Shown: one piece after another, positions 16,237 through 38,279 of the stretch
How the letters are laid out: each line of letters begins with the position of its first letter
Position numbering within the stretch: the first letter of the stretch is position 1
DNA from: Roseburia sp.
GTDB lineage: Bacteria > Bacillota > Clostridia > Lachnospirales > Lachnospiraceae
Direction of reading: 5' to 3'
Assembly: GCA_014804775.1 (NCBI GenBank)
Contig: JAAUZB010000032.1
Location: forward strand, 29,518 to 73,412
Length of the DNA: 43,895 nt
Notes under the pieces: generated by a model
What the model was told of the DNA's origin: nothing
The model's input: only the letters and a program-made list of their open reading frames with translations
Database searches by the model: none
Position numbers and translations under genes: made by a program

Positions 16237-16248
16237 CAGGTGAAATCA

Positions 16249-20178: not shown

Positions 20179-21309
20179 ATGTCACTATACTTAGATTACA
20201 ATGCATCTGCTCCTATCTTACCAAAGGTTCTAGATGTTATGATTGAAGCATATAAGCAAACTCCTGGTAATGCAGATAGCCGAACCCACATTTATGGAAC
20301 AAACGCCCAAAAATTGGTTCAGTCATGTCGTAATACCATAGCAGAAGTGTTGGGTGTCAATCAAGCCGAAGTTATTTTTACCAGCGGTTCAACAGAAAGC
20401 AATAATACAGTTATTCTTGGAATTAAAGAATATGCTGAAAAAGCAAGTAAAAAACATATAATCACCTCTTCAATTGAACATAAATCCATTCTTCAACCAC
20501 TTAAATATCTCGAAGAAAAGGGCTTTCAGGTAGATTATGTATCTCCAGATGAATCAGGCAGGGTTAATTCAGAAGAGGTCTTATCACTTATTACAGACAA
20601 AACTTGTCTAGTTTCAATAATGTTTGTTAACAGTGAAACCGGCATAATTCAACCTGTCAAAGAAATTGGCAGTGCCTTAAAGGAAACCGACATAATGTTC
20701 CACGTCGATGCAACGCAAGCTCTCGGTAAGCTTAATAATGAAATTCGTTCACTTGATTACAATATGATGAGTATTGCAAGTCATAAAATAGGCGGTCCTC
20801 AAGGAATCGGTGCTTTAGTTCTGAAACGTGGAAAAGATTACAAAAAGCCAGCTATTAAGCAGTTAATGTATGGTGGCTCTCAAGAGCGTGGTTTTCGTCC
20901 AGGCACAACCCCTGTTGCTTTAGTTGTTGGGTTTGCAAAAGCTGTCGAAATATGTGAGAAGGAATTGGAATCAAATCATAAGAAATGTTTACAAATTAAA
21001 GAACGATTTTTGAACGCAGTCAAAGATCTGCCATACACCATTAATGGAGATCCTAATTATTGCTTACCTTCAACAATAAACATTAGCTTTGATGGTTTAG
21101 ATGCCGAAGCAGCTTTTCTATGCCTTGGTGATGGCTATTCATTTTCCAATGGTTCCGCCTGCAATTCGTCATCTCATACTCTTAGTTATGTTCTGGAAGC
21201 CATGGGACTAGACGAAAAAAGAAAATCTGAAGCAATTCGTTTGTCATGGAACGGAAATACAGCTGTTGATTTTACAGATTTCGTTTCCATCGTTTCTAGT
21301 ATGATATAG
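20179..21309 (+). CDS. dndA: Cysteine desulfurase DndA (NifS/IscS-like)
   Basis: 376 residues. It releases sulfur from L-cysteine as an enzyme-bound persulfide for DndC. PLP lysine K203 lies in SIASHKIGGPQGIG, H101 (SSIEHKS) stacks on the cofactor, and the persulfide cysteine C328 lies in FSNGSACNSSSH. The SGSTESNN motif near 69-76 holds the PLP phosphate. It is the last gene of the operon; the order B-C-D-E-A, with the desulfurase at the end, differs from the separate or leading dndA of several known clusters and resembles the dndCDEA order reported in archaea. A bidirectional terminator follows ten bases later. Confidence 0.95.
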   Translation: MSLYLDYNASAPILPKVLDVMIEAYKQTPGNADSRTHIYGTNAQKLVQSCRNTIAEVLGVNQAEVIFTSGSTESNNTVILGIKEYAEKASKKHIITSSIEHKSILQPLKYLEEKGFQVDYVSPDESGRVNSEEVLSLITDKTCLVSIMFVNSETGIIQPVKEIGSALKETDIMFHVDATQALGKLNNEIRSLDYNMMSIASHKIGGPQGIGALVLKRGKDYKKPAIKQLMYGGSQERGFRPGTTPVALVVGFAKAVEICEKELESNHKKCLQIKERFLNAVKDLPYTINGDPNYCLPSTINISFDGLDAEAAFLCLGDGYSFSNGSACNSSSHTLSYVLEAMGLDEKRKSEAIRLSWNGNTAVDFTDFVSIVSSMI

Positions 21310-21352: not shown

Positions 21353-22015
21353 TTAAAATCTGACTTTCATCGTATTCATTAAATCGTTTGCTTTTAACCA
21401 CTCTAATACATGCGGCGTCAAATCACTAACAGTAGCTTTCTGCAACTTCACTTTATTGATAAACTTCTCTACTTCATCATCAAGATGTAATCCATCAACT
21501 ATTTCCTTACCACGAATAACTTTACTCAAAAACTCGTCGATACCCTTTGCCGATGTAGGCATTTTAATTTTCGCATTCCCCAAGGCTTCGAGTAGATCAT
21601 CTGCCTCCTTTTTATCCGGCAGCAAGCTTTTAAGGGAAGTTAACGAATCAATTACAGTAGTACAATGTTTATCTGCAGCATCCCTCCATGCGCTTTCAGT
21701 AGCAGTTTTGCATAAATCAATTGCATTCTTTAGTGCTTGAACCGTTGTAGCATCTAATGTATGGTCATTTGTTTTCTCTCCACAATTATCTACTGTCATC
21801 TGTAGCGTCTCTTTTAATTCTGCAGTTAATATTTCTGGTGCAATCTGCTTGTTCTTTAACGCTGTAATAACATTGAGTAACTGCTCTAATGTAGGAGCAC
21901 ATAATCCCAAAGCAATAACCTGCTCTTTAAATGTTTTGGCAGCATATTTATTATTTGTCACTTGAATAGAATCAAGCATTACACTATTTGTTGCTTTCAG
22001 TGTATCTAAAATCAT
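21353..22015 (-). CDS. Helical protein of unknown function, last gene of the effector operon
   Basis: 220 residues, predicted almost entirely alpha-helical (LGLCAPTLEQLLNVITALKN, SWRDAADKHC-type repeats of heptads), with no membrane segment and no catalytic motif that I can see. It overlaps the large ATPase gene by four bases (ATGA), so it is made together with that protein and may be its subunit or an accessory coiled-coil protein. No known family recognised. Some segments (KEADDLLEALGNAKIKMP) resemble the style of the ATPase's own C-terminal helical region, raising the possibility that this is a split-off C-terminal domain. Confidence 0.75.
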   Translation of the reverse strand: MILDTLKATNSVMLDSIQVTNNKYAAKTFKEQVIALGLCAPTLEQLLNVITALKNKQIAPEILTAELKETLQMTVDNCGEKTNDHTLDATTVQALKNAIDLCKTATESAWRDAADKHCTTVIDSLTSLKSLLPDKKEADDLLEALGNAKIKMPTSAKGIDEFLSKVIRGKEIVDGLHLDDEVEKFINKVKLQKATVSDLTPHVLEWLKANDLMNTMKVRF

Positions 22016-25000
22016 TCTGCCACCTCCATTTTCTCAATTTTATTGCTAAGTTCTTCCAATTTTGCAAGAGCCGCTTCAAGCATCAGTGGATCTACAGTCT
22101 CTACATCTCCAAGCAAATTACTATGAGTTGTATGAAGACGATTCGCAAAAGATTCCACATCATTAAGTGATTTAATGATAGCAGATAATTTTTCAATTGG
22201 TCGCTGGGAAAACAATGTCAGTAATTCAATCATGTCATCCGATGCTACTGCGTTTTTTAATGCATCATACTGTGCTATAGCATACTTTGCCTGCTCGGCA
22301 GGTGCATCATCAAATTTACTTTTCAAATCACTCGTAAAATGTTCATGCGCTGTTCCACAAATCTTGTAAAATTCTTGTATCTCTGCGGCAACGGCCTGAT
22401 AATCAGCCTCTGTTGGATTCTTACCAATTAAGCCTTCAAATTCTTTAATTTTTGAAATAGCCAATTTCTTCTCACTATCAATGACCGCATCGATTTTTTG
22501 ATAAAGAGCCTGTAAATACTTTCTGATATTTTCATATTGGTCACCATTATATGCTTCCAGTTCTACAGAAATATCCCAATTTAGCTTCTGAAGGTGAACA
22601 ATAGAATTAATCAGCTCGTTTGTTCTAAAAAACGGAACTTTTCCTTCTGCCTTTTCACCAACAATACCCATTACGGTTTTACTTCCCGAAATAAGACTTG
22701 CATTTATCTGTTCTTTAACAGATTTCTGGTTACCAAGGTATATAAGCACATCCTTCCATGCTTGATTCTCTCTATCATCTATCTTTGTAGGTGGATTTGT
22801 TCTCATAAGAATGCGTAGAAGTTCCTCATTCTTTTTACCCGCGAGTTTTTGTCCATATAAAAGTCGCTGCAAATATTCAATTGCTAAACACCAAGTAATA
22901 ACTGGGTGTTCATTATCACCCACAGTCTGTCCGAACAGCTTATCAATAAATGTCTTCTTATTCGCTTCTATCCAATTTATCAATACAAGCTGATAATATG
23001 CTGCATTTTCAAAATCCCATTTCTTATAGTAGTCAAACAAAGTCAGACCCATAAGTATTGTTCGTGCTTTGGAAGAACGCTTCAAAACTACAATCGCTTT
23101 ATTTTTGTTAATATCAAGTTTTGAATCTTCAATGTCAACAAAGTTACCATTTCTTAAGCGCTGTGTAACAAAATCACCTGGTAATCCTTCGTCCTGCCAT
23201 GCTATTGACTGAACAACAAAATTACCTACCCATTTATTATAATCCGATGAATACTCTAGCGTTTTCTTCGATTCAAACCACGCCTCAATATCTTCCTTCT
23301 TTCGATTAAATGCAATTTCCTGAAGAGACCGCTTTGGCGGATTTACTGTCGTTCCTGCATTACCGCCATTTGATGGTGGCGTAGCTAGAGTTGAAGCTGT
23401 AGTTGAGGGAGCTGATACACCACTATTTACACCTGCAAAAGCTCCTAGCCCTATCTCTACCAGGAATTTTTTACTAATACCACCTATTGTATCATCCACC
23501 ACTTCAGTAGTGCCATTTCCCCATACATTAAACAGCACTTTCATTCGAGTTTTATCCTCGTCAGATAAGCTTGAATTTTCAACGCTATCAGCATATGGAG
23601 GTTGAAGTGTTACAGAGGATATGTAAGAAGGCGTTTCTGGGAATCTCCAATTATCACCATATTCCATGCCATCAGCAAATTGAGCAAAGAAATGCTGAAT
23701 TACATGTGTTAAAAAGTTTCTAGGTGTCTTATGCTTTAGTTTGTCATACAGAGCAAGTAAGCTTTGCCTATTAAATGGATACAATGTATATGATTGATCC
23801 CCGATTTCAACTTTATCCCATTCAAAATCAGGAACATACTCAGCAGTCGGCATAGTATCCCCTACAGCACTACTTTTGTACCAATCTTTCACAGAATCAG
23901 TTGATGAGTATATGGCATTAATATAACGAGCTGCCATTTCAAGAAGGAAATCATCTCCGCCATATGATTGCTCTGTTACCTTAATCTGCTTTGTAACTCG
24001 ATCCTTAAAATTGTCTCTAAACGAGTCATAATATCCATCGGTAATGCCAATAACAGATGTAACGCGACATAAATCACTATACTTACCACCATTTTCAACT
24101 GATAGCGCTGTAATAAGCTCACTTTCAACGATACTAAACGACGTAAAATCCTCAATGAATATTGTCAGGTTCTTACCTTCTTTATAAAGAGACTTCCTCA
24201 AATTAACAAATAAATCTCTCGCATTTTCACTGGTAATATTTGCACAACTTTGCATTACTCCTGAAGTAAAATGATTCAGATATACAACTAGTTTTGCAAC
24301 TGCGCTCTCATCTTCATCTTTTAGCTCATACAAATAGAAGCTCTTTACTTCTTCTGCGGAATCCATTTTAATTGCTCTTTCAACTTCACGTGGCAATTTA
24401 AAATCATCTGCAGTAAAAATGGTTTCTGTTTCATCTGTGACAATTGTTTTTGCACCAGCAGTAATCATCTGATAGCACTTATCGATAGGGCCTTCAGGTC
24501 TCATCATATATTCCTGCACTCTCAAATCATATAAAAATGCTGCTATATTTTTACAAGTAACATGCTTATAGACCGAATTTGAGCTATCAGTCTGCACTCT
24601 TCTCACATACTCATTATAGATAGATGCCTTAAATTCTTCTTCATTTTGAGATTCTTCTGCAAAACAAAACTTTTTAAACTTTTCCTGAAGTTCCGAATCT
24701 TGAACCAGTCCTTCGTCCAACATCTGTTGTACTGCACCACGAACTGTATTACCAAGTCTCTGGAGAAAAATAACCTTCTCTTTACTCTCATTGTAACTCT
24801 CTTTATCACTTATAAAACGATTATGTAGCCAACATATTAAATGTGATTTTCCAGTACCATTTGTACCCCTGACAATAAGCATTTGATGCTTGTTGGCCCT
24901 GTTAACAATATATTGGTCATAAATCTGGTTTTCATTCAAGTGAATTGCATTAGCCTGAGTGTCGCCAAATTCTATAAATTCCAAATCACGAAAAGGAACA

Positions 25001-25092
25001 TGTGTAGCCATAAAATATTCTATATCAACAGCTGTTCCATCTTTTTTGATAACATACTGATCCATGTGATCAGAACAGTCTATCCACTTCAT
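22012..25092 (-). CDS. Large P-loop ATPase, DpdH-like
   Basis: 1026 residues. The Walker A motif GTNGTGKS is at 76-83 (LIVRGTNGTGKSHLICWLH) and a probable Walker B IFIEDFTSF is at 311-319; the fold is AAA+/STAND-like. The middle has a low-complexity linker near 575-600 (SGVSAPSTTASTLATPPSNGG). The last ~200 residues are a long helical, coiled-coil-like tail ending LEELSNKIEKMEVAE. Size, motif placement and gene order next to DpdG-, DpdF- and DpdE-like genes suggest the DpdH family of 7-deazaguanine DNA systems, or the corresponding Pbe protein of archaeal dnd loci. A sensor or motor role in restriction is an inference. Two bases separate it from the upstream gene. Confidence 0.75.
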   Translation of the reverse strand: MKWIDCSDHMDQYVIKKDGTAVDIEYFMATHVPFRDLEFIEFGDTQANAIHLNENQIYDQYIVNRANKHQMLIVRGTNGTGKSHLICWLHNRFISDKESYNESKEKVIFLQRLGNTVRGAVQQMLDEGLVQDSELQEKFKKFCFAEESQNEEEFKASIYNEYVRRVQTDSSNSVYKHVTCKNIAAFLYDLRVQEYMMRPEGPIDKCYQMITAGAKTIVTDETETIFTADDFKLPREVERAIKMDSAEEVKSFYLYELKDEDESAVAKLVVYLNHFTSGVMQSCANITSENARDLFVNLRKSLYKEGKNLTIFIEDFTSFSIVESELITALSVENGGKYSDLCRVTSVIGITDGYYDSFRDNFKDRVTKQIKVTEQSYGGDDFLLEMAARYINAIYSSTDSVKDWYKSSAVGDTMPTAEYVPDFEWDKVEIGDQSYTLYPFNRQSLLALYDKLKHKTPRNFLTHVIQHFFAQFADGMEYGDNWRFPETPSYISSVTLQPPYADSVENSSLSDEDKTRMKVLFNVWGNGTTEVVDDTIGGISKKFLVEIGLGAFAGVNSGVSAPSTTASTLATPPSNGGNAGTTVNPPKRSLQEIAFNRKKEDIEAWFESKKTLEYSSDYNKWVGNFVVQSIAWQDEGLPGDFVTQRLRNGNFVDIEDSKLDINKNKAIVVLKRSSKARTILMGLTLFDYYKKWDFENAAYYQLVLINWIEANKKTFIDKLFGQTVGDNEHPVITWCLAIEYLQRLLYGQKLAGKKNEELLRILMRTNPPTKIDDRENQAWKDVLIYLGNQKSVKEQINASLISGSKTVMGIVGEKAEGKVPFFRTNELINSIVHLQKLNWDISVELEAYNGDQYENIRKYLQALYQKIDAVIDSEKKLAISKIKEFEGLIGKNPTEADYQAVAAEIQEFYKICGTAHEHFTSDLKSKFDDAPAEQAKYAIAQYDALKNAVASDDMIELLTLFSQRPIEKLSAIIKSLNDVESFANRLHTTHSNLLGDVETVDPLMLEAALAKLEELSNKIEKMEVAE

Positions 25093-25093: not shown

Positions 25094-25867
25094 CTATGCC
25101 CCCTTTATAATTATTTCAGAAAAGTCATTAAATGAAACACCAACCAACTTAAATAGACCAACTTTCGCTGCATCCATGGTCGAAATCAGTTCAACAGTTC
25201 CTTCTTCGTGCAATGTCCTAAGACCATTTGATACCGCTAAAGATAGCCCTTGATTAGTACATGATGCTGCAGCTTCAGGAACATTTTCTTTTAACCAAGT
25301 CACAAACTGTACTGCAGTCATTTTTGTTCCTGGTTCAACGGCCTCAAGAGCATCCCCTAACCTAACTTTCATATTCGGAATAAGCGTTTTATTGTACTGA
25401 TAAGCATGTCCCAAGAATCTCATCCAAAATCGCCATCCTAATACATCATTTTCGCTTATTGACTCTATACCGTTCTTGGCTGACATAGCTGCAAAATCAT
25501 CAAATCTGTTAATCTCTTGCGTCATATCAGAGTTTGCAATATACCATTCTGTAAGCCTAAAAAAGGTAGATTTCTTGTTGGCAAATATAATAGGACTTAT
25601 AGCCTTTCGAAATGCTGTTGCTGATTTAAACGAAGCATCTGGTATATTAATTAAATATTTATCTCCACTCTTCATAATCAATTTCAACTCTTCAGCTGCT
25701 TCTACAGATCGTCTTATTGCTTCTTCTTCAAATTTGCTATCCGGATCCAATTCTGATAATTTAAACAAATCTTGGCTTGAATAATTGCCTTGATTAACCA
25801 GTCTACAAATTGCCAATACTCTTTCAGGAGTAGGTCCTGGTCGCATATTATCATTTTCCTTAAACAT
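25094..25867 (-). CDS. DpdG-like protein, winged-helix-like N-terminus
   Basis: 257 residues. The first ~70 residues (RPGPTPERVLAICRLVNQG, then EEEAIRRSVEAAEELKLIMK) look like a winged-helix DNA-binding or protein-contact domain. The rest is helical, with WRFWMRFLGHAYQ near 145 and a second possible winged helix at the end (NGLRTLHEEGTVELIS). I identify it mainly by place and size: a ~260-residue protein between a large P-loop ATPase and a RecQ-like helicase matches DpdG in dpd clusters. No enzymatic motif seen. The start could also be the internal MRPGPTP. It lies 12 bases after the helicase gene. Confidence 0.65.
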   Translation of the reverse strand: MFKENDNMRPGPTPERVLAICRLVNQGNYSSQDLFKLSELDPDSKFEEEAIRRSVEAAEELKLIMKSGDKYLINIPDASFKSATAFRKAISPIIFANKKSTFFRLTEWYIANSDMTQEINRFDDFAAMSAKNGIESISENDVLGWRFWMRFLGHAYQYNKTLIPNMKVRLGDALEAVEPGTKMTAVQFVTWLKENVPEAAASCTNQGLSLAVSNGLRTLHEEGTVELISTMDAAKVGLFKLVGVSFNDFSEIIIKGA

Positions 25868-25879: not shown

Positions 25880-28375
25880 TTACAAGCTAGATAAATTGCA
25901 TGAACGACAATTTAAAAATTCGTTTAACGGTCTGTTTTTTGAAACTATTCTTGTATTTGGCTTACAACACCAAACCTTCTTATATTTCAAAAAATTTCCA
26001 TTTTCTGCTATTTCAAATATCTTATTGTTTATAGCTACGTCATCACTTAATAAAAACAATATTCCGTTACGTATCACCCATTCAATATCATTAGCAATAG
26101 TAATGAACTCACTATGCGTAAGTCCTAAGCATCCGCCAGTATTAAGCTCTGAATACTTATCTGGAATTACAACGCAACCCACGTTGAGCTTATTAGCCTT
26201 TTCAATGACAATTTTAATATCTACATTATTGTAATCATCAACTGGAATCATTAAATCATTCAGGCATCCAATATATCTTTTAAGTGCCACAGATGGTACT
26301 GATGGTTCTACATTAACAATAGATTTATCTCTGATGCATATGGCATCCTCTTTCACAGATGTACCTTCTGGATGAACTGGACACCCATTACAAATTGGCT
26401 GTGCATAAGGATATAAAGAAACAAAATGTTTTCCCCAACACTTTGCTTTCGGTCTGTGAATTAAGTCAGCCATCTTATGATAACCTGCCACACGCATATC
26501 GTATTCTTTTTGTCTATCCTCTGAGATCGCCTCTGTCAATTTTTCAGAATTTTTTATCAATTCTATATCGTTAATCTTAAAAGAAAATAAGTACGTTTTC
26601 TTTACTGCATCATATTTTGCCTCAACAATTTCTATATATCCCTGTCTATGAAGCAATAACAAAGTATTTGCATTCCAACACATATTTCTCATGCCAGCAT
26701 GCACTGCTTCTTCAGCTGTAAATGACTTTGGAACTGTATTCAAGTCAGCTATGACAATTTCACCATCTATAATTGTCTTATCATCCGATAATAAGCTATC
26801 CAATCGAATGATAATATTTTCGGGCTTTAATATGCTCTTATTAACAAGCCCAAACGCTACAGATAAATCATTTCTGCCATCATCTCTACTCATAAAATAT
26901 GACATAACACTCAATGATGGGAGTCCGTCTCTTCCTGCTCGTCCAACCTCCTGATAAAATCTGCTAAGATTTTCGGGAACACATGAATGGATGATCGTTC
27001 TTACATTGCTTTTATCTACTCCCATTCCAAATGCGGAAGTTGCAATCATTATATCGAACTCGTTATTTTTCCAGGCTTCAAGCAGGGCTTCTCTATCTCT
27101 TTCTCCAGTTTCTCCTGTATAGGAATGAACATTAGTGAAACCTAATTTATTCAATTTCTTACAATATCGATTAGCTATAGCAGGTTCAATCACATAAACA
27201 ATTAAAGGCTTAGGTAAGTACTTAATCATCTCTATTACATCGCTCTCACGGCCTTCATAATTATGATTTTCAGAAACAGCATATCTTGGTTCTTGCCTTA
27301 GAGCATCACATCTAAATTGAACATTTTTGCCTTTTGATCCAAATAGATCAAAAAGCACTTCAACCACATCATCTGACAGGGTTGCAGACAGCAGGTATGT
27401 TCTGATATATCGGCCTGATACCTTTTTCATTTCATTTAATACAACTGAAAAAATTTGGAAATCTGGTCTGAAATGAACCCCCCAATCAGGCACAATATGC
27501 GCTTCATCAATTACAACATTATGAAGGTATTGGTCTTCTGCTGCTTTTCTAAGTTCCTTATTAAATCTATCGCTCTTCAATATTGCTTCTGGGGATGTAA
27601 AAATCAATCTTGCCGTCTTATTTTTTATTCCAGAAATAATTGCATCATTATCAGAATCCGCCCGATAACACAACACTTTTCCCTTCGCACCTTCATCCGC
27701 CAAGGAGCTTAGTGCTTGCAAATACTGATCTTTTGCAAGCGAGACGGTAGGAACTACTACTAATGTTAGTTTCTGCTCAACAGCCGACAAAAGTTGTGTT
27801 ATTAAACTTTTACCCCCACCAGTAGGAAGTGAAATCATTAACGTATAATCATTCGGCAATTCGACTGCACTATGTACTGCAATTTTCTGTTCCAAAGATC
27901 TATATTTTTTAAATTTTGTAAATCGACATAAATATGCATCACCAGAAGATTCCTTACATGAGCCCAACTCTTCTGCTCCCAACCCATATACTTGCTGAAT
28001 AAAATGCTTATTACCCAACAATGTTTTTGGGCATTTGTCCGCTACGTCAATGGCTCCATCTTGCGCAACAACAACACCTAACTCATCTCCACACCTCTCT
28101 ACTGCATCCGTAATAAGTCTTGGAAGTTTAAATCGTCCCATAAACAATATAAAATCTCTAATAAAAATCAACAAATCTTTGGGGCTGATTTTACCCGAAT
28201 TATACTGCTTATATCTTTGAAAATAAGTTCTGCAAAGCGAAGCTTTTGCGTACTCTTTTACTAATCCGCTTTCCAATAACACTGGAAGCATTTTTTCAAT
28301 TTTCAAATCTGCAGTTGTTACACTTATTTCATCATTCAAATAACTATTAAATACTTCCATGTAATTCATACACAT
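25880..28375 (-). CDS. RecQ-like superfamily 2 DNA helicase, DpdF-like
   Basis: 831 residues. The helicase core covers about 160-500: motif I LPTGGGKS (183-190), motif II DEAH (290-293, VIDEAHIVPDWGVHFRPDF), motif III LLSATLS, motif V SAFGMGVDKSNVRTIIH and motif VI QEVGRAGRDG (475-484), all of RecQ type. A cysteine cluster CWGKHFVSLYPYAQPICNGC near 650 and CRSCNLSSL at the C-terminus may bind zinc. The N-terminal 150 residues are unfamiliar. By architecture and neighbours it is the best match for DpdF. It should unwind or translocate on DNA in the effector step. The ATG is one base from the previous stop, with AAGGCGG overlapping that gene's end. Confidence 0.8.
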   Translation of the reverse strand: MCMNYMEVFNSYLNDEISVTTADLKIEKMLPVLLESGLVKEYAKASLCRTYFQRYKQYNSGKISPKDLLIFIRDFILFMGRFKLPRLITDAVERCGDELGVVVAQDGAIDVADKCPKTLLGNKHFIQQVYGLGAEELGSCKESSGDAYLCRFTKFKKYRSLEQKIAVHSAVELPNDYTLMISLPTGGGKSLITQLLSAVEQKLTLVVVPTVSLAKDQYLQALSSLADEGAKGKVLCYRADSDNDAIISGIKNKTARLIFTSPEAILKSDRFNKELRKAAEDQYLHNVVIDEAHIVPDWGVHFRPDFQIFSVVLNEMKKVSGRYIRTYLLSATLSDDVVEVLFDLFGSKGKNVQFRCDALRQEPRYAVSENHNYEGRESDVIEMIKYLPKPLIVYVIEPAIANRYCKKLNKLGFTNVHSYTGETGERDREALLEAWKNNEFDIMIATSAFGMGVDKSNVRTIIHSCVPENLSRFYQEVGRAGRDGLPSLSVMSYFMSRDDGRNDLSVAFGLVNKSILKPENIIIRLDSLLSDDKTIIDGEIVIADLNTVPKSFTAEEAVHAGMRNMCWNANTLLLLHRQGYIEIVEAKYDAVKKTYLFSFKINDIELIKNSEKLTEAISEDRQKEYDMRVAGYHKMADLIHRPKAKCWGKHFVSLYPYAQPICNGCPVHPEGTSVKEDAICIRDKSIVNVEPSVPSVALKRYIGCLNDLMIPVDDYNNVDIKIVIEKANKLNVGCVVIPDKYSELNTGGCLGLTHSEFITIANDIEWVIRNGILFLLSDDVAINNKIFEIAENGNFLKYKKVWCCKPNTRIVSKNRPLNEFLNCRSCNLSSL

Positions 28376-31300
28376 TTACCGCCTTGTTAAGAACATTAAA
28401 CTGATTGAATCCAATGACAAAATCGGATTTGACAATGCATAATATACCGCTTCATACTTCCGCTTAATCTTTACTATCTTTTCCATATCTTTGCCTAGAT
28501 ATATGTACTCAGATTCATATCCGCTAACAATTCTGTCAATCTCTCGCCTCGCTAACTCTAAATCTGCAAGTTCCATAGCTTGTTTGCGGGCCTTATCTCT
28601 TGAAATTTTCGATACCTTAGCGAGTGTGGCTTCCCATTCATCTTTAGGGTATTTTTCCATAAATCTTTCGAGAGCCGAAATATGTCCCCTTTTTCCAGAT
28701 CTTTCTCCCATATGATCTGCATTAATTACATTTCGTTTATCAAATAAATAGTCTACCAGTTCATTATCTAAAACAGCATCACATTTTCCAAATGGAACAA
28801 AAACAAATATTTGCTTCATCGGTAAGTACATTCTAAACTGCGATAACAACTGAATAGAAATCTTATTCTCAATTAAATGGTTTATTTTGGGTTCAACATT
28901 ATATACACAAACAAACCCTGTATAATTAAATGGAGCCAACGCAGAGAATGCACAACATCTTCCTCTTCCACTATCAATCGCATTACCAATTATACTGTTA
29001 AAAACAGGATCTCCTGGTGCATAAAACAGTAGATCTTCTCGCTTTATAGCAGTAGAACGATTAAAGGTTCCTAGAATTCGTCCTTCCTTTCTCACTATGG
29101 CTGTATTTTCATACAGATTCCAATCAGGTGGAACAAAAAGCGACTGTATCGCGGCCCTTGCAGAGAACATTGAATCTGCAAACTGAACTATTTCATTTTT
29201 ATTTACAGTACTTTTCAAACCAGCCTGGTTCGCCCATCCCAACATTGACGATTGGAATAGATCGTTCTCTCCACCTCTGTAGGTCTGTAGCATCTGCTTT
29301 ACTGCAATAGAGAGTGGTCGATAAATAACACTGCCTGAATCATATAACTGTTCTTCTTCAACAGCATCTCGAGTATCCTCTGTCATATCTATAATGCCAT
29401 CAATTGCATTCTCAAGACCTGTATAGACATCGTCCTGCAAAGCTTCTTCAATTCTTTCATTAAGCTCCCCAGTTATAATTTCAAGTCCACTTAATGATCT
29501 TTCAAAAAGATTCAATCCCTCATTCCAAATCCTAAATAGCTGCTCCTCTATCGTATTCTCTGCAACCAAAACAAGCGAATTCACTTCTAAATGCTCTTCA
29601 TCCCTACCCAAACGATCTAATCGTCCAATTCTTTGCTCTATGGCATTAGCAGTCCAAGGCAGATCTAAATGTATTATCCAATCAGCATTTTGAAAATTAC
29701 GCCCCTCTCCTCCGGTAGCATCACATAGAATAACACGTACATTTTCATAATTTTGGAATTCATATACACTATCTTCCAACTCATCCTTAAGCATATTACT
29801 CATAAAACAAACACATGGTATATCACGCTTTTCAAGCATTTCCCCAAACTTCCATAACGTTTCTGGAAATTCAGAGAACACAACAACTTTTCCATTATTA
29901 TCATTGCTTACTGTAACTTCTTGCTCAATAAAATCTACCGTCTTTAATAGTCTCCCCTTAATATCATCAGGATTTTCATCCATGAAGTAATCAATTTGAG
30001 ATAATTCATCATCCGCTTGTGATATCCATAATTTTAGCAGTTCTTTTAGTTCTATATCATCCGCTTCAATATCTTCTAAAACATGGTCTAACGCCCAAGG
30101 TGAACTGAACATTCCTTGCAAAAGCTTAAAGATATCCTGCATGCTTATTTTTTCTTCTTGAATTGCAAATGAAACATATTCAAGAAGAGCAAAATACACA
30201 TTACGCTCACAATAATTATCATCTGCATTTTTCATGCTATAAAATATAGTCTCTAATCGTCGCTTTCCTAATGTTTCAGAAACATATTCTCTTCGGTTTC
30301 TAACAATATTTCTTTCTATTCTGTAATTCTCTGAAATATATGAAAGAGACTGTTCCATAGCAGATCTGCCTTGATTGTCATCTTCCAAATCTATTCCAGC
30401 TACAATCTCAGATAAGTTAGGATCTCCCAAATCATCTGCTAATTCTCTTAATTTCTCTAACGAATCCTCTTTGTATTCCTCATACTGATTCATATGAGAA
30501 ATCATGCCATTTACTCGTCTCTGTATTTTCTTCTGTTTAGATAGTATTGAAGAAAAGGTTGAAATTGACATCCTGCAATACTGTTCTGGTTGAAGTAATG
30601 ATAATAGCTTGAGATATTCTTCTTTTCGATTTTGGATAGGCGTAGCACTTAAAAACAAAGCATTCTCTGTTCTTTTGCTAAGCTGAAGAATCAAATCATA
30701 CTTAGCAGCCATACCCAGCAATCGATGAGTTTCATCAACTATAATTATATCCCAATTTAACGCAGTGGCTTCACAATACTCATCCAACTCCTCTAATGAT
30801 AAAATTACATGATTAGAATATACAGCTATCGCAAGATTCTGTGTCGCAGTTATCTCAAACTTGTACCTTAATTCATTTTCCCACTGCTGTGCCAATGCCC
30901 CTGGAACAATGTATAATACCCTCAAATCTTTCTTTTCAGAATTAAGAATCTTCACAATTGAACATGCCTCAATTGTTTTTCCAAGTCCTACCTCATCAGC
31001 AAGCATGTATCGAATAGGTCTCGACTCAAAGGCTCTGACTATTGTGCTAATCTGATGTGCCATTAAAAATGTACGGCATCCCACTAACTCCTTAAATCCG
31101 TATACTGTATTATTAACCATATGCATATTACTGCTAACTTGCAGTCTATTAGCGTACCAAGAAGGATTCTGGAATTCATATTGCATCATCTGCTTTATTG
31201 GCTGATAGTCTGCAGCAGAATATTCTATCTCTATCATATTTTCAAAAAATGAAGCTATCTTGCCCGAATCAAGCATCACAAAATATTCATAGAATGCGTC

Positions 31301-31588
31301 TACTTTCTTTTCAATTCGCCTAGAAAGTATCTTTCCTGGCCCCATCGATGTATTAACAGGCGCATCTTTAGCAGCACCGCAACGGTTTACTTTTTCAATC
31401 GGAAACTGGCCTTTTTCAAAAGCATGGGCATAAAAACGCTTGCTATTCTTTAAGTCATATAGCTTTACATTTACTTCGCCAGAAAGTTCATTTATGCTGG
31501 TTATTTTCCCCAATACAAAGCTTCTAGGAAAATAATTATCATTTTCCTCAAGAACTATAGGGCATCGTACATACTGTCCTACTTTCAC
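28376..31588 (-). CDS. SNF2/RapA-like helicase, DpdE-like
   Basis: 1070 residues. Motif I DEVGLGKT (198-205), motif II DETH (285-288, IIIVDETHRLLG), motif III FLSATPIQNRKEEYLKLL, motif V ATGGEGRNFQNADWIIHLDLP and motif VI EQRIGRLDRLGR belong to the SNF2/RapA group, which translocates on double-stranded DNA. An N-terminal beta-rich domain (YVRCPIVLEENDNYF..) and a long C-terminal region without known motifs complete the protein. Size and neighbours match DpdE; the SNF2-type subunit of archaeal Pbe would be the alternative. AGGAGG precedes the ATG. Together with the RecQ-like and UvrD-like proteins it makes three helicases from three families in one operon. Confidence 0.8.
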   Translation of the reverse strand: MKVGQYVRCPIVLEENDNYFPRSFVLGKITSINELSGEVNVKLYDLKNSKRFYAHAFEKGQFPIEKVNRCGAAKDAPVNTSMGPGKILSRRIEKKVDAFYEYFVMLDSGKIASFFENMIEIEYSAADYQPIKQMMQYEFQNPSWYANRLQVSSNMHMVNNTVYGFKELVGCRTFLMAHQISTIVRAFESRPIRYMLADEVGLGKTIEACSIVKILNSEKKDLRVLYIVPGALAQQWENELRYKFEITATQNLAIAVYSNHVILSLEELDEYCEATALNWDIIIVDETHRLLGMAAKYDLILQLSKRTENALFLSATPIQNRKEEYLKLLSLLQPEQYCRMSISTFSSILSKQKKIQRRVNGMISHMNQYEEYKEDSLEKLRELADDLGDPNLSEIVAGIDLEDDNQGRSAMEQSLSYISENYRIERNIVRNRREYVSETLGKRRLETIFYSMKNADDNYCERNVYFALLEYVSFAIQEEKISMQDIFKLLQGMFSSPWALDHVLEDIEADDIELKELLKLWISQADDELSQIDYFMDENPDDIKGRLLKTVDFIEQEVTVSNDNNGKVVVFSEFPETLWKFGEMLEKRDIPCVCFMSNMLKDELEDSVYEFQNYENVRVILCDATGGEGRNFQNADWIIHLDLPWTANAIEQRIGRLDRLGRDEEHLEVNSLVLVAENTIEEQLFRIWNEGLNLFERSLSGLEIITGELNERIEEALQDDVYTGLENAIDGIIDMTEDTRDAVEEEQLYDSGSVIYRPLSIAVKQMLQTYRGGENDLFQSSMLGWANQAGLKSTVNKNEIVQFADSMFSARAAIQSLFVPPDWNLYENTAIVRKEGRILGTFNRSTAIKREDLLFYAPGDPVFNSIIGNAIDSGRGRCCAFSALAPFNYTGFVCVYNVEPKINHLIENKISIQLLSQFRMYLPMKQIFVFVPFGKCDAVLDNELVDYLFDKRNVINADHMGERSGKRGHISALERFMEKYPKDEWEATLAKVSKISRDKARKQAMELADLELARREIDRIVSGYESEYIYLGKDMEKIVKIKRKYEAVYYALSNPILSLDSISLMFLTRR

Positions 31589-31604: not shown

Positions 31605-31934
31605 TTACATCAGAATGTAAATAATATTTAATCCAAGTTTATCCTCACTGGTAATGCCATCTATACCACCATCATGTGCCTTTTCGAAAACCTGGCTTGA
31701 CTTATCGTCGCACCCATACTCCATAGCTAAAAGCACATCAACAACTAGTTTTTCAAAAAAGCTCGGATGACAGACCTTCACTTGTTCCAACAACGTAAAC
31801 CTTAAATCAGTCAAATAGTGCTGATATGCCAAGACCATTTTTCCCTCAGGTAATTGCTCGTCTTCAATATCTAAAACATAATCAATCTTCTCTCTTGATA
31901 TCACTCCTTTGACTGAGCAAATGATTCCAAGCAA
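31605..31934 (-). pseudogene. Truncated Mrr-type restriction endonuclease fragment
   Basis: 109 residues. LEQVKVCHPSFFEKLVVDVLLAMEYG followed by KAHDGGIDGITSEDKLGLNIIYI is the first half of the Mrr_cat domain: the FE..V..LL..MGYG helix and the catalytic DGGIDG. Full-length Mrr continues IYIQAKRW, which supplies the catalytic Q-x-K; here the frame ends IYILM-stop. The N-terminal winged helix is also missing. The ORF overlaps the 3' end of the AddB-like gene by 34 bases and its true start may be internal. It is probably an inactive remnant left when the operon was assembled, although the clean placement between two genes with intact ribosome sites leaves room for a retained DNA-binding role. 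Confidence 0.7.
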
Positions 31935-34789
31935 AGATTTCTATTAGGGCAAAAAACACACCAACTACCAACTCGCTCCATATTTCCATCTGCTTCGTTC
32001 ATGTACGCTAGAGTACTCTGTGCTAACCTCTTGTCCTCTTCCTTAGGCGGAACCTTATGCATTGAATATATCTTCTTTCCTTCCTCAAAAGACGCCAACT
32101 CTTCAAATACCACATACATATGTTTTGAAGGTGCATCTTGCAAATCTTCTTTAAACCAGGCGTCACCAAATGTCTTTCTCAACTGCATATGTGATGCAAC
32201 AAGTGGACGTACATTTTTATTCTGATTTTCATCAAGAAACACTTTTGCTTTAATATAGTTTTCTACTCGCCTTTGAATATCTAATATTTCTGTTTCATTG
32301 AAAAACTTAAAGTATCTGCTCAATCTCATCGTTTCTTGAGATACATATTGGGCCAGTCTTTCTTCAGCCTGATTTTGCGTAATGTTCTGAGATGCTAACG
32401 TTCTCCATGTATTTTCAATCAAAATGTTCTCAAGGCATTTTGAAATCATAAACGAACCTGCAAAAATGGGTTGAGGATTTAATACATAATCTAAAAGATA
32501 CTTATATGGGCATAAGAACATTGCTGCCATTTGCTCCCTAACATATGGCATAGCTTCAACCTTCTTAGCCTTGATAACAGTAGACATACTATACTCGTCA
32601 AATTCTGACTTAGATGGACCATCTTGTTTCTCAAGGCCTATCAGTTTTAACATTTCATAGTAGTCAGTTGTATCTTCGCCGTATCTCTTTACAAAGCTTA
32701 TTTTTATATCACACTGGTTAAAATATAAGCCATAAAATAATGCATATCTTAAGAAATTGCTTCTTTCTCCCAATGCCGCATAGTACACCTGGAACTGCAA
32801 ATCTTTTGGATTATATGCTTTTTCAATAAACTGTTCTGATAGTGGCCATGGCAAAAGCTCATTAATCGACTTATTCATATCCTTATCAGACACACAAGCA
32901 AAATGATAAACTTTCTTTCGCCCATAAGTGTTCTGAGCTTTGCTATTTAAAACGTCACCATCAATCTGTTCAAAGTTCTTAACAAACCAATCTGAAAGCG
33001 GTTCTTCTTTTTGTTTTAGGAAAAAGTATAATCCGCTTCTTAAGTCGTCAAAAGTACCTTTATTATCCGATTCCATCATCTGAATTAGATCGAGTTTTGT
33101 CAAAAGATCGGTTATGAGTTTTTTCTCTTCTTCACTAGCTAAAGATGCTCGTCTCTCTCTAACAAATTCATTGAGTCGTTCAAAATGCTTCTTAAACTCA
33201 AATCGCTCATCAGGTTCTATACTTGAAAAAAGTCCCGTTGCAATACCATTTAATTCAGAAACAGCACTGCACAAATCATCTATTTCTTCTTTTGTAACTT
33301 TGTATGAATTATATATATTCAAAATTCGTAGCGAAAAAATAGCCGCCTGCGCATTTGATTCTGCTACCTGCACATAATTTGTTCTATATTCTTCAAATAG
33401 CTTCGTAAATTCTGTAAATGTTTCTACATTTGCAAATAATGGTTCCAAATTCATTAATGTTTTTAGTAAGCGTTCTGCGCTATACTTGGACATAATCCCA
33501 GAATTTAAACACTCTCTAAGTAACGCAAATTCAATGTCAATCTCTCCTCTTTCAACATTCCAAAGAGAATAAATCGCTGAAAAAAATTGACCAATCGGAT
33601 ATGCTAAAAAATGTCTGTTTCTCGAATACTCCGGATGGTAAACTTGCAGAAGCTCGTCTACATCCTTGTTTGCTGTATAGACAATTTCATCCATTCTTGC
33701 AAGAACAGCTGCAGTAGTTGCCTTCTTTTGCATAGGTTTTTCGTACAAAGGATCCTCTCCTTGCATAGTTCTTTCAGTTTCCATGAATTCGTCTGATATG
33801 TAGCCAGCAAATTCAGATACATTATCAAACTCTTGGACTTTTTGTGTATTATATAAAGAATAATTTGCTTTTATTCTTGCGTCAGTTCTAGACACTTTAT
33901 CCTCACACACCAACCCTATGTTACTTGCGATTGCATTTCCTATCTTCTGCAATTGACCTATAGGAATGTATGCTTTAACCTTTGTATCATGATGAATCGG
34001 TGCATCAAATTGTTGGTAGATATAACTCCATGATGAATAAATCTCTTTATATTCCGGCAAATAATTGAACATAAAGATAACTTCCACACCAAGCTTGTCC
34101 AAATGCTTTATAAACTTAAGTTGTAAAGGTGTAAACTGATGTATTCCATGAATCACAACATGCTTAGCATCCCACTGCTTTGTTGTTGCTATCATGCGAT
34201 CAATTAATTCTAAGTCCCTTTTTAAAAATTCATCATTTGGTTGTTCTCCGTGTAAGCGCTCCTTTTCATTCTTTTCCTGCTGAGCCTGCTGATTAAGCAA
34301 CACTTTAAGTTCGTCTCTTGAAGGCATTTTAGGCAATGAAAATGTTTTCTCTTTACCGAGCAATTTCAGCATATACACAAACATCCTATGTTCCATGTTA
34401 AGCTGTCTTGCATCGAGTACTGTTGGATCTATATCCAATTCAATAAATAATCGCAATGCATCTAACATTGAATCCTTATTATGCGAAAGAGCACTATAAT
34501 AATTAAAATCTAACCCATTCTTAACATTCCATGTTTTATAAACTTCTGTAAGTGCACTGTATTGCTGAATTCTAAGACCAATGCCATTTGCCCATTGCTT
34601 AAAAATTTTTTCATTCACAATATCATCCAATGGGCACATTAATGCACTGATGTCATCTCTCATAACACTAATCAAACCATTAACCAATGTTCTTGCAGCA
34701 CATAAATGAGGATAATTCTTTATCTCATCCCAAAAATCTGTCTCTGCTATTCTATATGGGTCTGCATATGTATAAATTTTATAAGCCAT
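31901..34789 (-). CDS. AddB-like protein with Fe-S cysteines, nuclease motif not seen
   Basis: 962 residues. The body resembles an inactivated UvrD-type helicase of the AddB/RexB kind: KHVVIHGIHQFTPLQLKFIKHLDKLGVEVIFMFNYLPEY near 215-255, in the position of motif II. The C-terminal part has AAMFLCPYKYLLDYVL, and the end carries WCVFCPNRNLC (CX2CX5C); these four cysteines match the Fe-S staple of AddB and Cas4-like PD-(D/E)XK nucleases. I cannot find the GxxDR..DYK residues a nuclease would need. It lies directly before the NERD-UvrD helicase gene in the operon order (stop-to-start gap zero), so the two probably form an AddAB-like heterodimer. Which DNA end or modification it acts on is unknown. 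Confidence 0.7.
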   Translation of the reverse strand: MAYKIYTYADPYRIAETDFWDEIKNYPHLCAARTLVNGLISVMRDDISALMCPLDDIVNEKIFKQWANGIGLRIQQYSALTEVYKTWNVKNGLDFNYYSALSHNKDSMLDALRLFIELDIDPTVLDARQLNMEHRMFVYMLKLLGKEKTFSLPKMPSRDELKVLLNQQAQQEKNEKERLHGEQPNDEFLKRDLELIDRMIATTKQWDAKHVVIHGIHQFTPLQLKFIKHLDKLGVEVIFMFNYLPEYKEIYSSWSYIYQQFDAPIHHDTKVKAYIPIGQLQKIGNAIASNIGLVCEDKVSRTDARIKANYSLYNTQKVQEFDNVSEFAGYISDEFMETERTMQGEDPLYEKPMQKKATTAAVLARMDEIVYTANKDVDELLQVYHPEYSRNRHFLAYPIGQFFSAIYSLWNVERGEIDIEFALLRECLNSGIMSKYSAERLLKTLMNLEPLFANVETFTEFTKLFEEYRTNYVQVAESNAQAAIFSLRILNIYNSYKVTKEEIDDLCSAVSELNGIATGLFSSIEPDERFEFKKHFERLNEFVRERRASLASEEEKKLITDLLTKLDLIQMMESDNKGTFDDLRSGLYFFLKQKEEPLSDWFVKNFEQIDGDVLNSKAQNTYGRKKVYHFACVSDKDMNKSINELLPWPLSEQFIEKAYNPKDLQFQVYYAALGERSNFLRYALFYGLYFNQCDIKISFVKRYGEDTTDYYEMLKLIGLEKQDGPSKSEFDEYSMSTVIKAKKVEAMPYVREQMAAMFLCPYKYLLDYVLNPQPIFAGSFMISKCLENILIENTWRTLASQNITQNQAEERLAQYVSQETMRLSRYFKFFNETEILDIQRRVENYIKAKVFLDENQNKNVRPLVASHMQLRKTFGDAWFKEDLQDAPSKHMYVVFEELASFEEGKKIYSMHKVPPKEEDKRLAQSTLAYMNEADGNMERVGSWCVFCPNRNLCLESFAQSKE

Positions 34790-37700
34790 TTATTTTTCCT
34801 CCCATATAAGATTTTGCCAGCTTTTGGATTTTTTGTTCTCTAACTCAATCCATGCAAAAGATCTAATTGCTCGAGTCATTGCAACATAGAGAATTCGTGC
34901 TTCTTCTCGCATTCTTTCATTCTTTTCAAGATCTTCATTGAAGAAATCATTTTGGTATATATCCGTAGTCCCATCAGAGTTTACTTTTATCTGATACCCC
35001 ACCTGTAATCGCTCTCTATGTGCAACAGACACATTCATGTCCACCCGTTTCATCATATTTATTGGCGATGAACAATATGGTAATATAACAGCACCATATT
35101 CTAGTCCCTTAGATTTATGAACTGTAACGCATCGTATAATAATTTCTTCACCTTTTATTTCTGGCATTCGACTGTTAACATTTTTCTGGCTGACAATATT
35201 CGCCGTAAGAATATCAACTAATAAATTAATCGTAACCGAATCCATATTTGCTGCATTAATTAATTCTTCAAACAGCAAATCAACATTTAATCTATAATTA
35301 TCTTGTTTGAGCTTTCTGTCCTCGCCATATTGCACCCATGGCTTAAGTATGTAATAGAGTTTTCTTATAACCTGTAAAACCGGCATTGTTCTAAGCGAAC
35401 GTATAACACTATTCCAATCTTTCCATCTATCATCATCAGTCGCAGAAAGAGCTCTATTAATCATAGCTTGTAGTTCTTTAGATTGGCTCGTGTCAGTGCT
35501 CTTTGATTTTTTCCAACCACTTTTCTTTTCACCTTCACGAATACTATACATTCTTGCCTTGCTCATTCCACCATCAATAAAATTCGATGAAACAAATGCG
35601 TAAAGATAATCGGCTTCATCATAATGAAGAAGCGCATTGGCTAATTTAAGCATATCCAAGGCTGGCTCTGACATATACAAGTCACCACCTGTATTTGTAA
35701 CTACCTCAAATCCAAGCAATTTGCCTTTCTTTTTTATTATCTCCGCCTGCCAATTTTCTCTAACAAGAATTGCGATTTCCCTATCCTTATCTGACAATTT
35801 CTTTCCTGTTTCTTTTTCAATTTTCTTTATTAAAGCAATCTGCCTTCTTACTTCTTCAAAGAGCGCTGGAACTCTCATATTTTCTTCCGAAATAGATACT
35901 TTATGATAGTATTCGGAAATAGCCAATGAGTGGTTATAGTCCTTCGTTCCGATTAGCCTATCTGAATTATCTGACTCTGAATCGCTATACATAAGAAGCA
36001 TTTCATCATCAACACGTTGTCTTCCCATTGAAGAAAAAGATTCATGGAATATATCAAGCAGATGCCCATCAGTACGATAGTTTTTATAAAGTGCATATGT
36101 CTCCCACACAGATGAGTCTTTGTACTTTAATTGATAAAAAGCGTTCTCTTTAGCACCTCTAAATCGGTAAATGCACTGCTTAACATCTCCAACTACAAAC
36201 AATCTATACTGAAGCAATTTTGCAATCTGCGAAAGAGCTTCAATCTGAACATCATCTGTATCCTGGAACTCGTCAACAAACATAAACTGAGGTCTTCCAG
36301 TCTGCATCTTGATTAACCTTTTTACATTTTCTTCATTTGAAATACATGCTAGGAGCATTGACATCATGTTATTAAGATGTAATTTATTCTGCTCCTTCAA
36401 ATATACTTCATATTCCTGTTCAACTTTTGGGACTACCTCTGATAACAGTTCATGCAATTCCCCATTTTCACTTCCTGAAATTGCTTGCCCAAAATTTTCT
36501 CTTTCAAGTGCTGCGATATCAACACTCTGATTATGAAGTCTATTAAGCAAATTCAATATATCTTTATTAATTAAATACACCGGAAGCCCAAGTTTTTTTA
36601 CATAATCTGATCCAAACTTCTTTTGTCCAGTAACTATATATTCATTAACGGCCTTCGCAATAATCTGTTTACACTTATACTCACCTGATGTAATCCCCAA
36701 ATCCACACCATATCCAAACTCAAACCCTAATTGCGATATAATCTTTTTCGCGTAAGAATGAATTGTGCTGATCTGCATACCCTCTATCTGGTTAACAAAT
36801 GCTAAACAGTCAGTATCTCCTGTCAATAAATAATAGTTATTAAAATACTGTTTTATCTTATCTTCCATCTGATTTGCAGCATCGTCCGTAAAAGTAATCA
36901 TGACAATTCTGTTAGCCATCTCTTTCATGGCACAATTTTGCATATGACAAATAAAAGCAATTCTAGAAATCATAGTAAATGTCTTACCTGTTCCCGCTCC
37001 TGCTCTTACGATAATATTTTTCTTCAAATCGGAATGCTCAACCTTATACTGTTCAATATTAAAATTGCTTTCTTTATCAGCAAACTTCAAAAATGGCTCA
37101 TACTTTGCTTCGCTTTTGCCATCAACGATAGTGAAGAATTCAATCTTTTCTTCATACTTCGGAAGCAAATATGCCGAACAGTTAAATACCATGTATGAAT
37201 CTGCAAGACCAGTTGTTTTCTGTTCCTGTTTTCCCATAAAGTCAATCTTCAGATCGAGTTTATCTGCAATCAGTCCTTTTTCTACGAGAATACTATTTAT
37301 CTCTCGACTGATGGCTAAAAGTTCATCGGAACTATCAACTGTTAAATAAAGTTTAGTTCCCTTTGCATACTCTATAGCAATATCTTTTATCCTGTTCTCT
37401 GCATCATTATCATGTGGAATGTATGCAAAAATAGAATATGCACTTTTATATGGTACCTGTTCTCCTTCCACTAAATCAGTATCTTCTACTGACATATCTT
37501 CTAATTTCAAATTTGATTCAAATATTTGACGAGTTCTAAACATTAAATCCTCATCAAAATCTGATGAATGAGCACGCTGTCCCTTTCTATTTTTCATGGC
37601 CAGGTTCATCTTGTCATGGAAGCTTGCTTTACTTGCCAAATCTTCTTTTGTAATTGTAATTTCACTCTCGCAAACTGGCTCTAAACCAGTGTCATCATAT

Positions 37701-38101
37701 TCTTTCTTTGTTAAATTAGGGAAACAAACCATTTCATAAATTAACGGATTCTTTCCCGTCTTTGTACGGACCTTTTGACGCATTTTATATACATAGCCAC
37801 GTGCCTGATCTGTTGGGTTTTCAAATGTTTCTTCCTCTTTTTGAGTCTCCTCATTAAAAGACTTGATAACAATCCTGTCGCCATTTTCAACGCGTAGTAT
37901 TGTCTCTCTTTTCCAAGCCTTTACTTCGAAAATAATAATTCCGATATTAGGAGCTAAAAGGCAAACATCAAATTGTGCACCAAAAACTGGACGATTCCTG
38001 TAAATAACATATGAATCATCAAAATACTCCATCAACTTTTTTATAAAATAATCTTCGCCCCAATTATCTGTTTTGAGCTGAGATCCAATAAATTTCGCCA
38101 T
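34790..38101 (-). CDS. NERD-UvrD helicase, first gene of the effector operon
   Basis: 1103 residues. An N-terminal nuclease-related (NERD) domain shows the PD-(D/E)XK residues D45, E59 and K61 (FDVCLLAPNIGIIIFEVKAW). The SF1 helicase core follows: motif I AGAGTGKT (367-374), motif II FVDEFQDTDDVQIE, motif III VVGDVKQCIYRFRGAK, motif V VTVHKSKGLEYGAVILP and motif VI EEARILYVAMTRAI. It thus combines a 3'-5' motor with a possible nuclease at the opposite end from AddA, whose nuclease is C-terminal. AGGAGAGTGTC precedes the ATG. With the AddB-like neighbour it probably forms a processive helicase-nuclease; action on DNA lacking or bearing phosphorothioates is an inference. The promoter was not located; the operon may once have started with the HTH gene whose scrap lies upstream. 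Confidence 0.88.
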   Translation of the reverse strand: MAKFIGSQLKTDNWGEDYFIKKLMEYFDDSYVIYRNRPVFGAQFDVCLLAPNIGIIIFEVKAWKRETILRVENGDRIVIKSFNEETQKEEETFENPTDQARGYVYKMRQKVRTKTGKNPLIYEMVCFPNLTKKEYDDTGLEPVCESEITITKEDLASKASFHDKMNLAMKNRKGQRAHSSDFDEDLMFRTRQIFESNLKLEDMSVEDTDLVEGEQVPYKSAYSIFAYIPHDNDAENRIKDIAIEYAKGTKLYLTVDSSDELLAISREINSILVEKGLIADKLDLKIDFMGKQEQKTTGLADSYMVFNCSAYLLPKYEEKIEFFTIVDGKSEAKYEPFLKFADKESNFNIEQYKVEHSDLKKNIIVRAGAGTGKTFTMISRIAFICHMQNCAMKEMANRIVMITFTDDAANQMEDKIKQYFNNYYLLTGDTDCLAFVNQIEGMQISTIHSYAKKIISQLGFEFGYGVDLGITSGEYKCKQIIAKAVNEYIVTGQKKFGSDYVKKLGLPVYLINKDILNLLNRLHNQSVDIAALERENFGQAISGSENGELHELLSEVVPKVEQEYEVYLKEQNKLHLNNMMSMLLACISNEENVKRLIKMQTGRPQFMFVDEFQDTDDVQIEALSQIAKLLQYRLFVVGDVKQCIYRFRGAKENAFYQLKYKDSSVWETYALYKNYRTDGHLLDIFHESFSSMGRQRVDDEMLLMYSDSESDNSDRLIGTKDYNHSLAISEYYHKVSISEENMRVPALFEEVRRQIALIKKIEKETGKKLSDKDREIAILVRENWQAEIIKKKGKLLGFEVVTNTGGDLYMSEPALDMLKLANALLHYDEADYLYAFVSSNFIDGGMSKARMYSIREGEKKSGWKKSKSTDTSQSKELQAMINRALSATDDDRWKDWNSVIRSLRTMPVLQVIRKLYYILKPWVQYGEDRKLKQDNYRLNVDLLFEELINAANMDSVTINLLVDILTANIVSQKNVNSRMPEIKGEEIIIRCVTVHKSKGLEYGAVILPYCSSPINMMKRVDMNVSVAHRERLQVGYQIKVNSDGTTDIYQNDFFNEDLEKNERMREEARILYVAMTRAIRSFAWIELENKKSKSWQNLIWEEK

Positions 38102-38150: not shown

Positions 38151-38279
38151 TTAACTGTCTTTCTTTCCTTCTTCAACTTCATATACATATGTATATTTCG
38201 GCTTTATTGCACCTGCAGGAATCAAATAATTTGTTCCAACTTTTTGAATTCCATTGATGCGACCATTTTTACAATGATT
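38151..38279 (-). pseudogene. C-terminal scrap of an excisionase/MerR-like HTH protein
   Basis: The frame NHCKNGRINGIQKVGTNYLI, then PAGAIKPKYTYVYEVEEGKKDS-stop, reads like the recognition helix and wing of small excisionase-type HTH proteins (C..GRI.G..K.G..WLIP..A.KP). The frame has no start; it is cut off where the IS256-type fragment begins. It is in the same direction as, and 50 bases before, the NERD-UvrD helicase gene, so it may have been the regulator of that operon. Confidence 0.55.

Follow-up and report, generated by a model that had tools for sequence, protein, structure and literature searches.

AddAB and RecBCD resect double-strand breaks, and RecC is not known to have the Fe-S cysteines of the AddB type.

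Among phosphorothioate (PT) systems, DndABCDE-DndFGH, DndCDEA-PbeABCD, SspABCD-SspE/FGH and IscS-DndBCDE-DndI each combine a PT module with a dedicated effector module (PMC8569181, PMC6459918, PMC8092258, PMC11662687). Dnd clusters that lack DndFGH have been called solitary, and epigenetic roles have been invoked to explain them (PMC8569181, PMC11931770). The locus analyzed here shares with the above systems the combination of a PT module with a dedicated effector module, but the effector module is a different one. No DndFGH genes were found in the window (the whole stretch of DNA that was analyzed, 43,895 nucleotides), and the TIGR03238 (dnd_assoc_3) family is present in just 5 of 50 genomes.

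A complete Dnd operon (DndBCDE and DndA; 15220-21309, plus strand) is convergent with an effector operon of seven intact genes. As the preliminary description had proposed, the effector operon is headed by an AddA-like and an AddB-like gene; homologues of DpdE, DpdF, DpdG, DpdH and DpdI make up the remainder. Thus, the window joins a writer of PT to a restriction set of the Dpd type, a setting that the preliminary description had not named. The AddA-like and AddB-like ORFs abut with a 0-nt gap at 34789/34790 (minus strand), and gaps elsewhere in the operon do not exceed about a dozen bases, except for a degenerate gene between the AddB-like and DpdE genes. The features are as follows.

34790..38101, minus strand: AddA-like SF1A helicase with an N-terminal NERD nuclease, 1103 aa, gene 1 of the effector operon (Pfam and PDB matches)
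37718..38065, minus strand: NERD nuclease domain, residues 13-128 of the AddA-like protein (Pfam PF08378, structure model)
34868..37054, minus strand: UvrD/AddA helicase core, residues 350-1078 of the AddA-like protein; Walker A AGAGTGKT, DEFQD and motif VI conserved, C-terminal nuclease missing
31901..34789, minus strand: partner with the AddB/RecC fold, 962 aa; four Fe-S cysteines retained, no nuclease motifs, no Walker A
32510..32512, minus strand: Fe-S cysteine C760 (LCPYK) of the AddB-like protein, from the sequence (100% of 70)
31931..31960, minus strand: Fe-S cysteines C944, C947 and C953 (CVFCPNRNLC) of the AddB-like protein, from the sequence (96-97% of 70)
31605..31934, minus strand: remnant of a HARE-HTH and Mrr restriction endonuclease gene; HTH and catalytic half gone
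28376..31588, minus strand: DpdE homologue, SNF2-type helicase, 1070 aa (NF041062, 363.7 bits, cut-off 500)
25880..28375, minus strand: DpdF homologue, RecQ-type helicase, 831 aa (NF041063, 476.5 bits, cut-off 550)
25094..25867, minus strand: DpdG homologue, 257 aa (NF041064, 27.4 bits, E 2e-6)
22012..25092, minus strand: DpdH homologue, P-loop ATPase, 1026 aa (NF041065, 266.5 bits)
21353..22015, minus strand: DpdI homologue, 220 aa (NF041066, 23.4 bits, E 5e-5); position conserved
15220..16236, plus strand: DndB (TIGR03233, 392 bits, above cut-off)
16240..17796, plus strand: DndC, phosphorothioation sulfurtransferase (TIGR03183, 603 bits, above cut-off)
17798..19792, plus strand: DndD (TIGR03185, 448 bits, above cut-off)
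19792..20175, plus strand: DndE (TIGR03184, 113.5 bits, above cut-off)
20179..21309, plus strand: DndA-type cysteine desulfurase adjoining DndE (TIGR03235, 428 bits, cut-off 480)

Other ORFs flank the two operons. Next to dndB lies the C-terminal part of an SF2 helicase (13229-14761, minus strand), which looks truncated because a 49%-identical region occurs in a 1052-aa ORF of genome G277 (L032/L033) that has more N-terminal sequence. Upstream of the effector operon, all on the minus strand, are what we take to be a fragment resembling an IS256-type transposase (38269-38526, just upstream), a macro-domain-like ORF (39213-39761) and a Fic-like ORF (40652-41533).

Like the Dpd (7-deazaguanine) system, the locus has DpdE, F, G, H and I homologues in identical order. 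It differs in that (i) PT takes the place of the base modification, and the genes annotated in the locus include no match to the DpdA, B, C, D, J or K families, (ii) the AddAB-like pair is present, and (iii) all five Dpd-type matches, although significant, fall below the NCBI curated cut-offs. The DpdE, F and H homologues match their NCBIfam families near full length, and PADLOC concurs on these three identities; the DpdG and DpdI matches are weak. The YprA helicase DpdJ was above cut-off in 0 of 30 genomes, and the phospholipase-D nuclease DpdK was not found among the genes of the locus. No recognized nuclease domain besides NERD was found in the other intact genes of the block in the window.

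The preliminary description had recognized a UvrD-type protein with an N-terminal NERD domain and had placed D45, E59 and K61 in PD-(D/E)XK positions, and both assignments held. Pfam finds NERD (PF08378) at residues 13-128 (1.8e-11) and UvrD at residues 350-659 (3.5e-43). In an alignment of 67 AddA-like homologues, E16, D45, E59 and K61 are 100% conserved, which argues that the residue pattern is not due to chance. Q99 and Y103 of the NERD domain and the SF1 motifs AGAGTGKT, DEFQD, GDxKQxIYRFRG and motif VI are practically invariant in the same alignment. In the structure model (pLDDT 86.3), the first 126 residues run helix-strand-strand-strand-helix-strand, the order expected for a PD-(D/E)XK fold; the NERD region alone gave no match in a PDB sequence search. 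The protein as a whole is closest to AddA both in sequence (top PDB match 3u44_A, 1.8e-16) and in fold (top match 4cei_A, 3.1e-27, with RecB and UvrD ranking lower), and it reaches 129.7 bits against the AddA model TIGR02785, short of the curated cut-off of 707.65. In 67 of 67 homologues the chain stops 25-41 residues past motif VI. Thus, the C-terminal nuclease of AddA is missing from this subunit too, which goes beyond the preliminary description.

The AddB-like protein is much harder to place. As a single sequence it matched nothing in Pfam, PADLOC, NCBIfam or the PDB sequences, its profile gave only chance matches to PDB sequences, and the AddB model that describes housekeeping AddB gave no match to it. 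Its structure model is confident (pLDDT 87.2, pTM 0.75), and the top PDB fold matches are RecC (8b1t_C, 3.4e-11) and AddB (4cei_B, 3.5e-11), both over the full length. The AddB structures match at 3.5e-11 to 6.4e-11, the RecC and AddB alignments span ~1040 columns, and the TM-scores are moderate (0.42-0.47), as expected of a flexible multidomain chain. An independent profile-profile comparison of the AddB-like family with 20 housekeeping AddB sequences found two collinear segments, located around a DGFxxFTP motif and around the C-terminal cysteines, which score 48.7 and 40.3 (unrelated profiles and a reversed profile score ≤29) at modest probabilities of 40% and 11%. Given this modest match and the absence of a PDB sequence match, the claim of an AddB fold rests mainly on the structure model.

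Conservation shows what the AddB-like protein has kept and what it has lost. The four Fe-S cysteines noted in the preliminary description (C760, C944, C947 and C953, in the AddB-type arrangement C...CxxCx5C) are conserved in 96-100% of 70 sequences. The lack of nuclease residues was likewise upheld: the motif GRIDR is present in 20 of 20 housekeeping AddB proteins and DYK in 18 of 20, versus 3 and 5 stray matches, respectively, in the 70 AddB-like proteins. The N-terminal Walker A, a trait of Gram-positive AddB, is found in 19 of 20 housekeeping AddB proteins and in 0 of 70 AddB-like proteins. On these grounds, the AddB-like protein is a scaffold-type subunit that resembles RecC in what it has lost and AddB in the Fe-S staple it has kept. 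An intact PD-(D/E)XK site in this protein or the absence of an AddB fold would have refuted the reading given in the preliminary description; both were sought, and neither was the case.

Taken together, the data support an AddAB-like heterodimer, the formation of which is inferred, in which both C-terminal nucleases are lost or dead and a single NERD domain sits at the N terminus of the helicase. The pair resembles AddAB in its adjacent genes for an SF1 helicase subunit and an AddB-fold subunit, in the Fe-S cysteines and in AddAB structures being the best or near-best fold match for both chains. In contrast to AddAB, it has one nuclease at the opposite end and no C-terminal nuclease in either chain, its AddB-like subunit has no Walker A, it falls outside the AddA and AddB models, and it sits in a defense operon separate from housekeeping AddAB. 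With RecBCD it shares a subunit that has neither an active helicase nor an active nuclease, that resembles RecC in role and whose fold is as close to RecC as to AddB; this subunit, however, retains the AddB-type Fe-S cysteines, which are not known from RecC, and the operon has no RecD gene. Gabija GajB and other UvrD-type defense helicases also join a UvrD helicase with a nuclease in defense, and the PADLOC candidate C3a187 also joins NERD with UvrD. The GajB and C3a187 models, however, describe single proteins without an AddB-like partner, and their score is confined to the helicase core or the NERD domain.

Some loci carry additional ORFs or domains. The HARE-HTH/Mrr gene between the AddB-like and DpdE genes is decayed in genome G337 (L019) as well as in the window, and an intact 301-aa ORF of this type occupies the same position in L051; since only a truncated remnant of it is left in the window and in G337, we rejected a role of the Mrr ORF in the mechanism. 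Two extra ORFs of ~190-216 and 260-385 aa lie between the AddB-like and DpdE genes in G156, G246, L095, L096, L098, L100, L101 and L104, and those of L100 have no family match above a curated cut-off. Long AddB-like ORFs of 1393-1415 aa with a C-terminal extension occur in L039, L040, L041, L049 and L050; PIN_4 was confirmed in the extension of L039 and L050, making it a second potential nuclease on the scaffold subunit. A fused PIN domain as the general effector was rejected because the long form accounts for only 5 of the 70 aligned sequences. The Mrr gene and the PIN-type extension present in a few loci are accessory predicted nucleases.

A scan of about 85,000 genomes, one per species, found 75 loci with the block (NERD-AddA-like, AddB-like, DpdE, F, G, H and I), mostly in Bacillota, with a few metagenome-assembled genomes (MAGs) labeled otherwise. 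Of the 72 loci that include upstream sequence, 68 have the AddA-like gene directly upstream of the AddB-like gene, NERD-AddA is present in 67 of the 71 with enough sequence, and DpdE is downstream of the pair in 67 of 71. DpdE, F, G and H are all present in 61 of 62 loci that have >7 kb of downstream sequence. In L091 and L097 the pair sits beside other genes without DpdE even though downstream sequence is present, suggesting that the pair can work in other company. L097, in a MAG labeled Thermosipho, has Dnd genes adjoining the NERD-AddAB pair, and another AddAB-like pair (978 and 712 aa) comes after it. A search of viral contigs found no relative, and the plasmid search returned a single partial match (23% identity, Geobacillus).

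Genomes G230, G277 and G369 (L030-L034) encode AddAB-like pairs that are shorter (819-825 and 855-886 aa), have no NERD and adjoin another UvrD-type ORF; the G230 neighborhood adds SNF2, methylase-like and PglZ-like ORFs. These pairs possibly belong to another defense system that uses an AddAB-like pair and were left out of the system counts.

A check for a separate housekeeping addAB was positive: the genome of the window has an AddA of 1228 aa and an AddB that carries the motifs GRIDRVD, IIDYK and CxYCPYHxVC. This addB (L160; G000:C19:183937-187393) is read as two overlapping ORFs, and since the stretch has many ambiguous bases the split may be an assembly artifact. A housekeeping AddB match was also found in 29 of 30 other carrier genomes. 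In 20 genomes, the pairwise distances of the AddA-like, AddB-like, DpdE, DpdF and DpdG proteins correlate at r 0.95-0.99, but their correlation with the housekeeping AddB of the same hosts is r 0.11-0.14 and not significant. The pair is therefore part of the module rather than of the repair set of the host, and it is together with the restriction module that it moves between hosts. The suggestion in the preliminary description that the pair is specialized for the system is sustained in this sense, its function in defense being inferred. DndC correlates less tightly with the block genes (r 0.72-0.75); for example, the DndC proteins of L066 and L106 are 96% identical and their AddB-like proteins 43% identical. 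The two halves of the system, PT writer and restriction block, behave as if partly interchangeable.

Because NERD is the sole conserved predicted nuclease of the block, we infer that the pair degrades DNA, and we consider it probable that it is the helicase-nuclease effector of a PT-based restriction system. Also in favor of this reading are the invariant NERD and SF1 residues, the folds of the two chains, the Fe-S cysteines retained where nuclease motifs and Walker A are lost, the conserved gene order, the co-inheritance of the block, its linkage to DndC (see below) and the lack of DpdJ. The analysis shows domain content, active-site residues kept and lost, predicted folds, gene order, co-inheritance, the linkage to Dnd and a separate housekeeping AddAB; the heterodimer, its activity, the order of events and the role in defense are all inferences with no experiment behind them. 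To our knowledge, not every NERD domain has been shown to be an active nuclease, which counts against the effector reading, as do the weak DpdG and DpdI matches, the modest profile-profile match to AddB, the looser co-evolution of DndC and the two loci that hold the pair without DpdE.

We considered three other explanations. The pair could resect or repair Dpd-type breaks, or protect the host from its own restriction, without attacking invaders. This would fit the known activity of AddAB and RecBCD, and with housekeeping AddB in nearly all carriers a second copy could be a repair tool specific to the system. However, without NERD there is no recognized conserved nuclease in the block of the window and hence nothing to make the breaks, and an AddB-like protein that lacks Walker A in 70 of 70 sequences and has no nuclease site is unlike a repair AddB. 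We find this explanation unlikely, though it deserves to be kept in mind.

We give much less credence to an ordinary Dpd system with its modification genes at another site and with the adjoining Dnd operon a coincidence of a defense island. The DpdE-I homologues do match Dpd families, and for E, F and H the match covers most of the protein, but neither DpdJ nor the other missing families were found in the searches described above, and DndC accompanies the block too regularly. DndC is in view in 12 loci and is above cut-off in 46 of 50 further genomes with the block; in the four genomes without it, the loci are at or near contig ends. For about 40 of the 46, the DndC coordinates are within about 10 kb of the locus, a figure given as approximate because 3 of the 43 counted as near (L084, L091 and L094) are probably on other contigs; the contigs of 17 fetched DndC genes agree in size with those of their loci. 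In the taxonomic order of the window, all 7 genomes that encode a full-length homologue have DndC, versus 6 of 385 others (Fisher P 6e-12), and at the six other Dnd loci none of the block was found within the stretches read.

Finally, it is scarcely credible that the AddB-like protein hides a C-terminal nuclease with a changed motif, giving two nuclease sites as in AddAB: it does retain the Fe-S staple by which AddB holds its nuclease domain, but the GRIDR and DYK motifs are absent, none of the D, E or K residues from C760 to C944 reaches 90% conservation in the 70 sequences, and this interval (~184 residues in the window protein) is longer in those housekeeping AddB proteins that were inspected.

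If the pair is the effector, the system might work as follows. DndBCDE and DndA would mark self DNA with sulfur, and the co-inherited block would attack unmarked or incoming DNA. The helicase/ATPase set DpdE-H, which is akin to the restriction part of the Dpd system, may survey DNA and detect missing PT or some other state of infection (how PT is read is unknown) and may then pass a DNA end or opened duplex to the AddAB-like heterodimer. There, the AddA-like subunit would unwind the DNA, the AddB-like subunit, an inactive helicase with a dead nuclease held by the Fe-S staple, would act as a RecC-like scaffold or strand channel, and the single NERD site would cut the unwound DNA.

A further idea, which is no more than a hypothesis and in our view rather improbable, is that the AddB-like subunit reads PT as RecC or AddB reads Chi, PT being a "chemical Chi." The AddAB-like machine would then enter at ends, degrade processively and be switched off at PT, leaving self DNA resistant. 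If true, this would explain why a moving helicase with one nuclease is paired with sparse PT marks.

Dnd genes together with DpdE-I or an AddAB-like pair are not described in the literature searched (including PMC10853773, PMC12839542, PMC12458937, PMC8569181, PMC11931770, PMC6459918, PMC11888242 and PMC12904381); subscription papers were mostly outside the scope of the search, and a description there is possible. PT self-marking, attack genes of the Dpd family and a fixed AddAB-like component thus apparently constitute an undescribed bacterial defense system.

Such a system brings together PT modification, the Dpd restriction set and the RecBCD/AddAB enzymes, three machineries that have been considered separately. 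It points to a route by which AddAB can be rebuilt for defense, with both C-terminal nuclease sites lost, NERD gained at the opposite end and the Fe-S scaffold retained. The restriction block moves as a unit, and the DndC that goes with it is partly exchanged. The PT writer here has a different and far larger restriction partner, and hence some Bacillota Dnd systems that appear solitary may have an unrecognized effector and may be full restriction systems.
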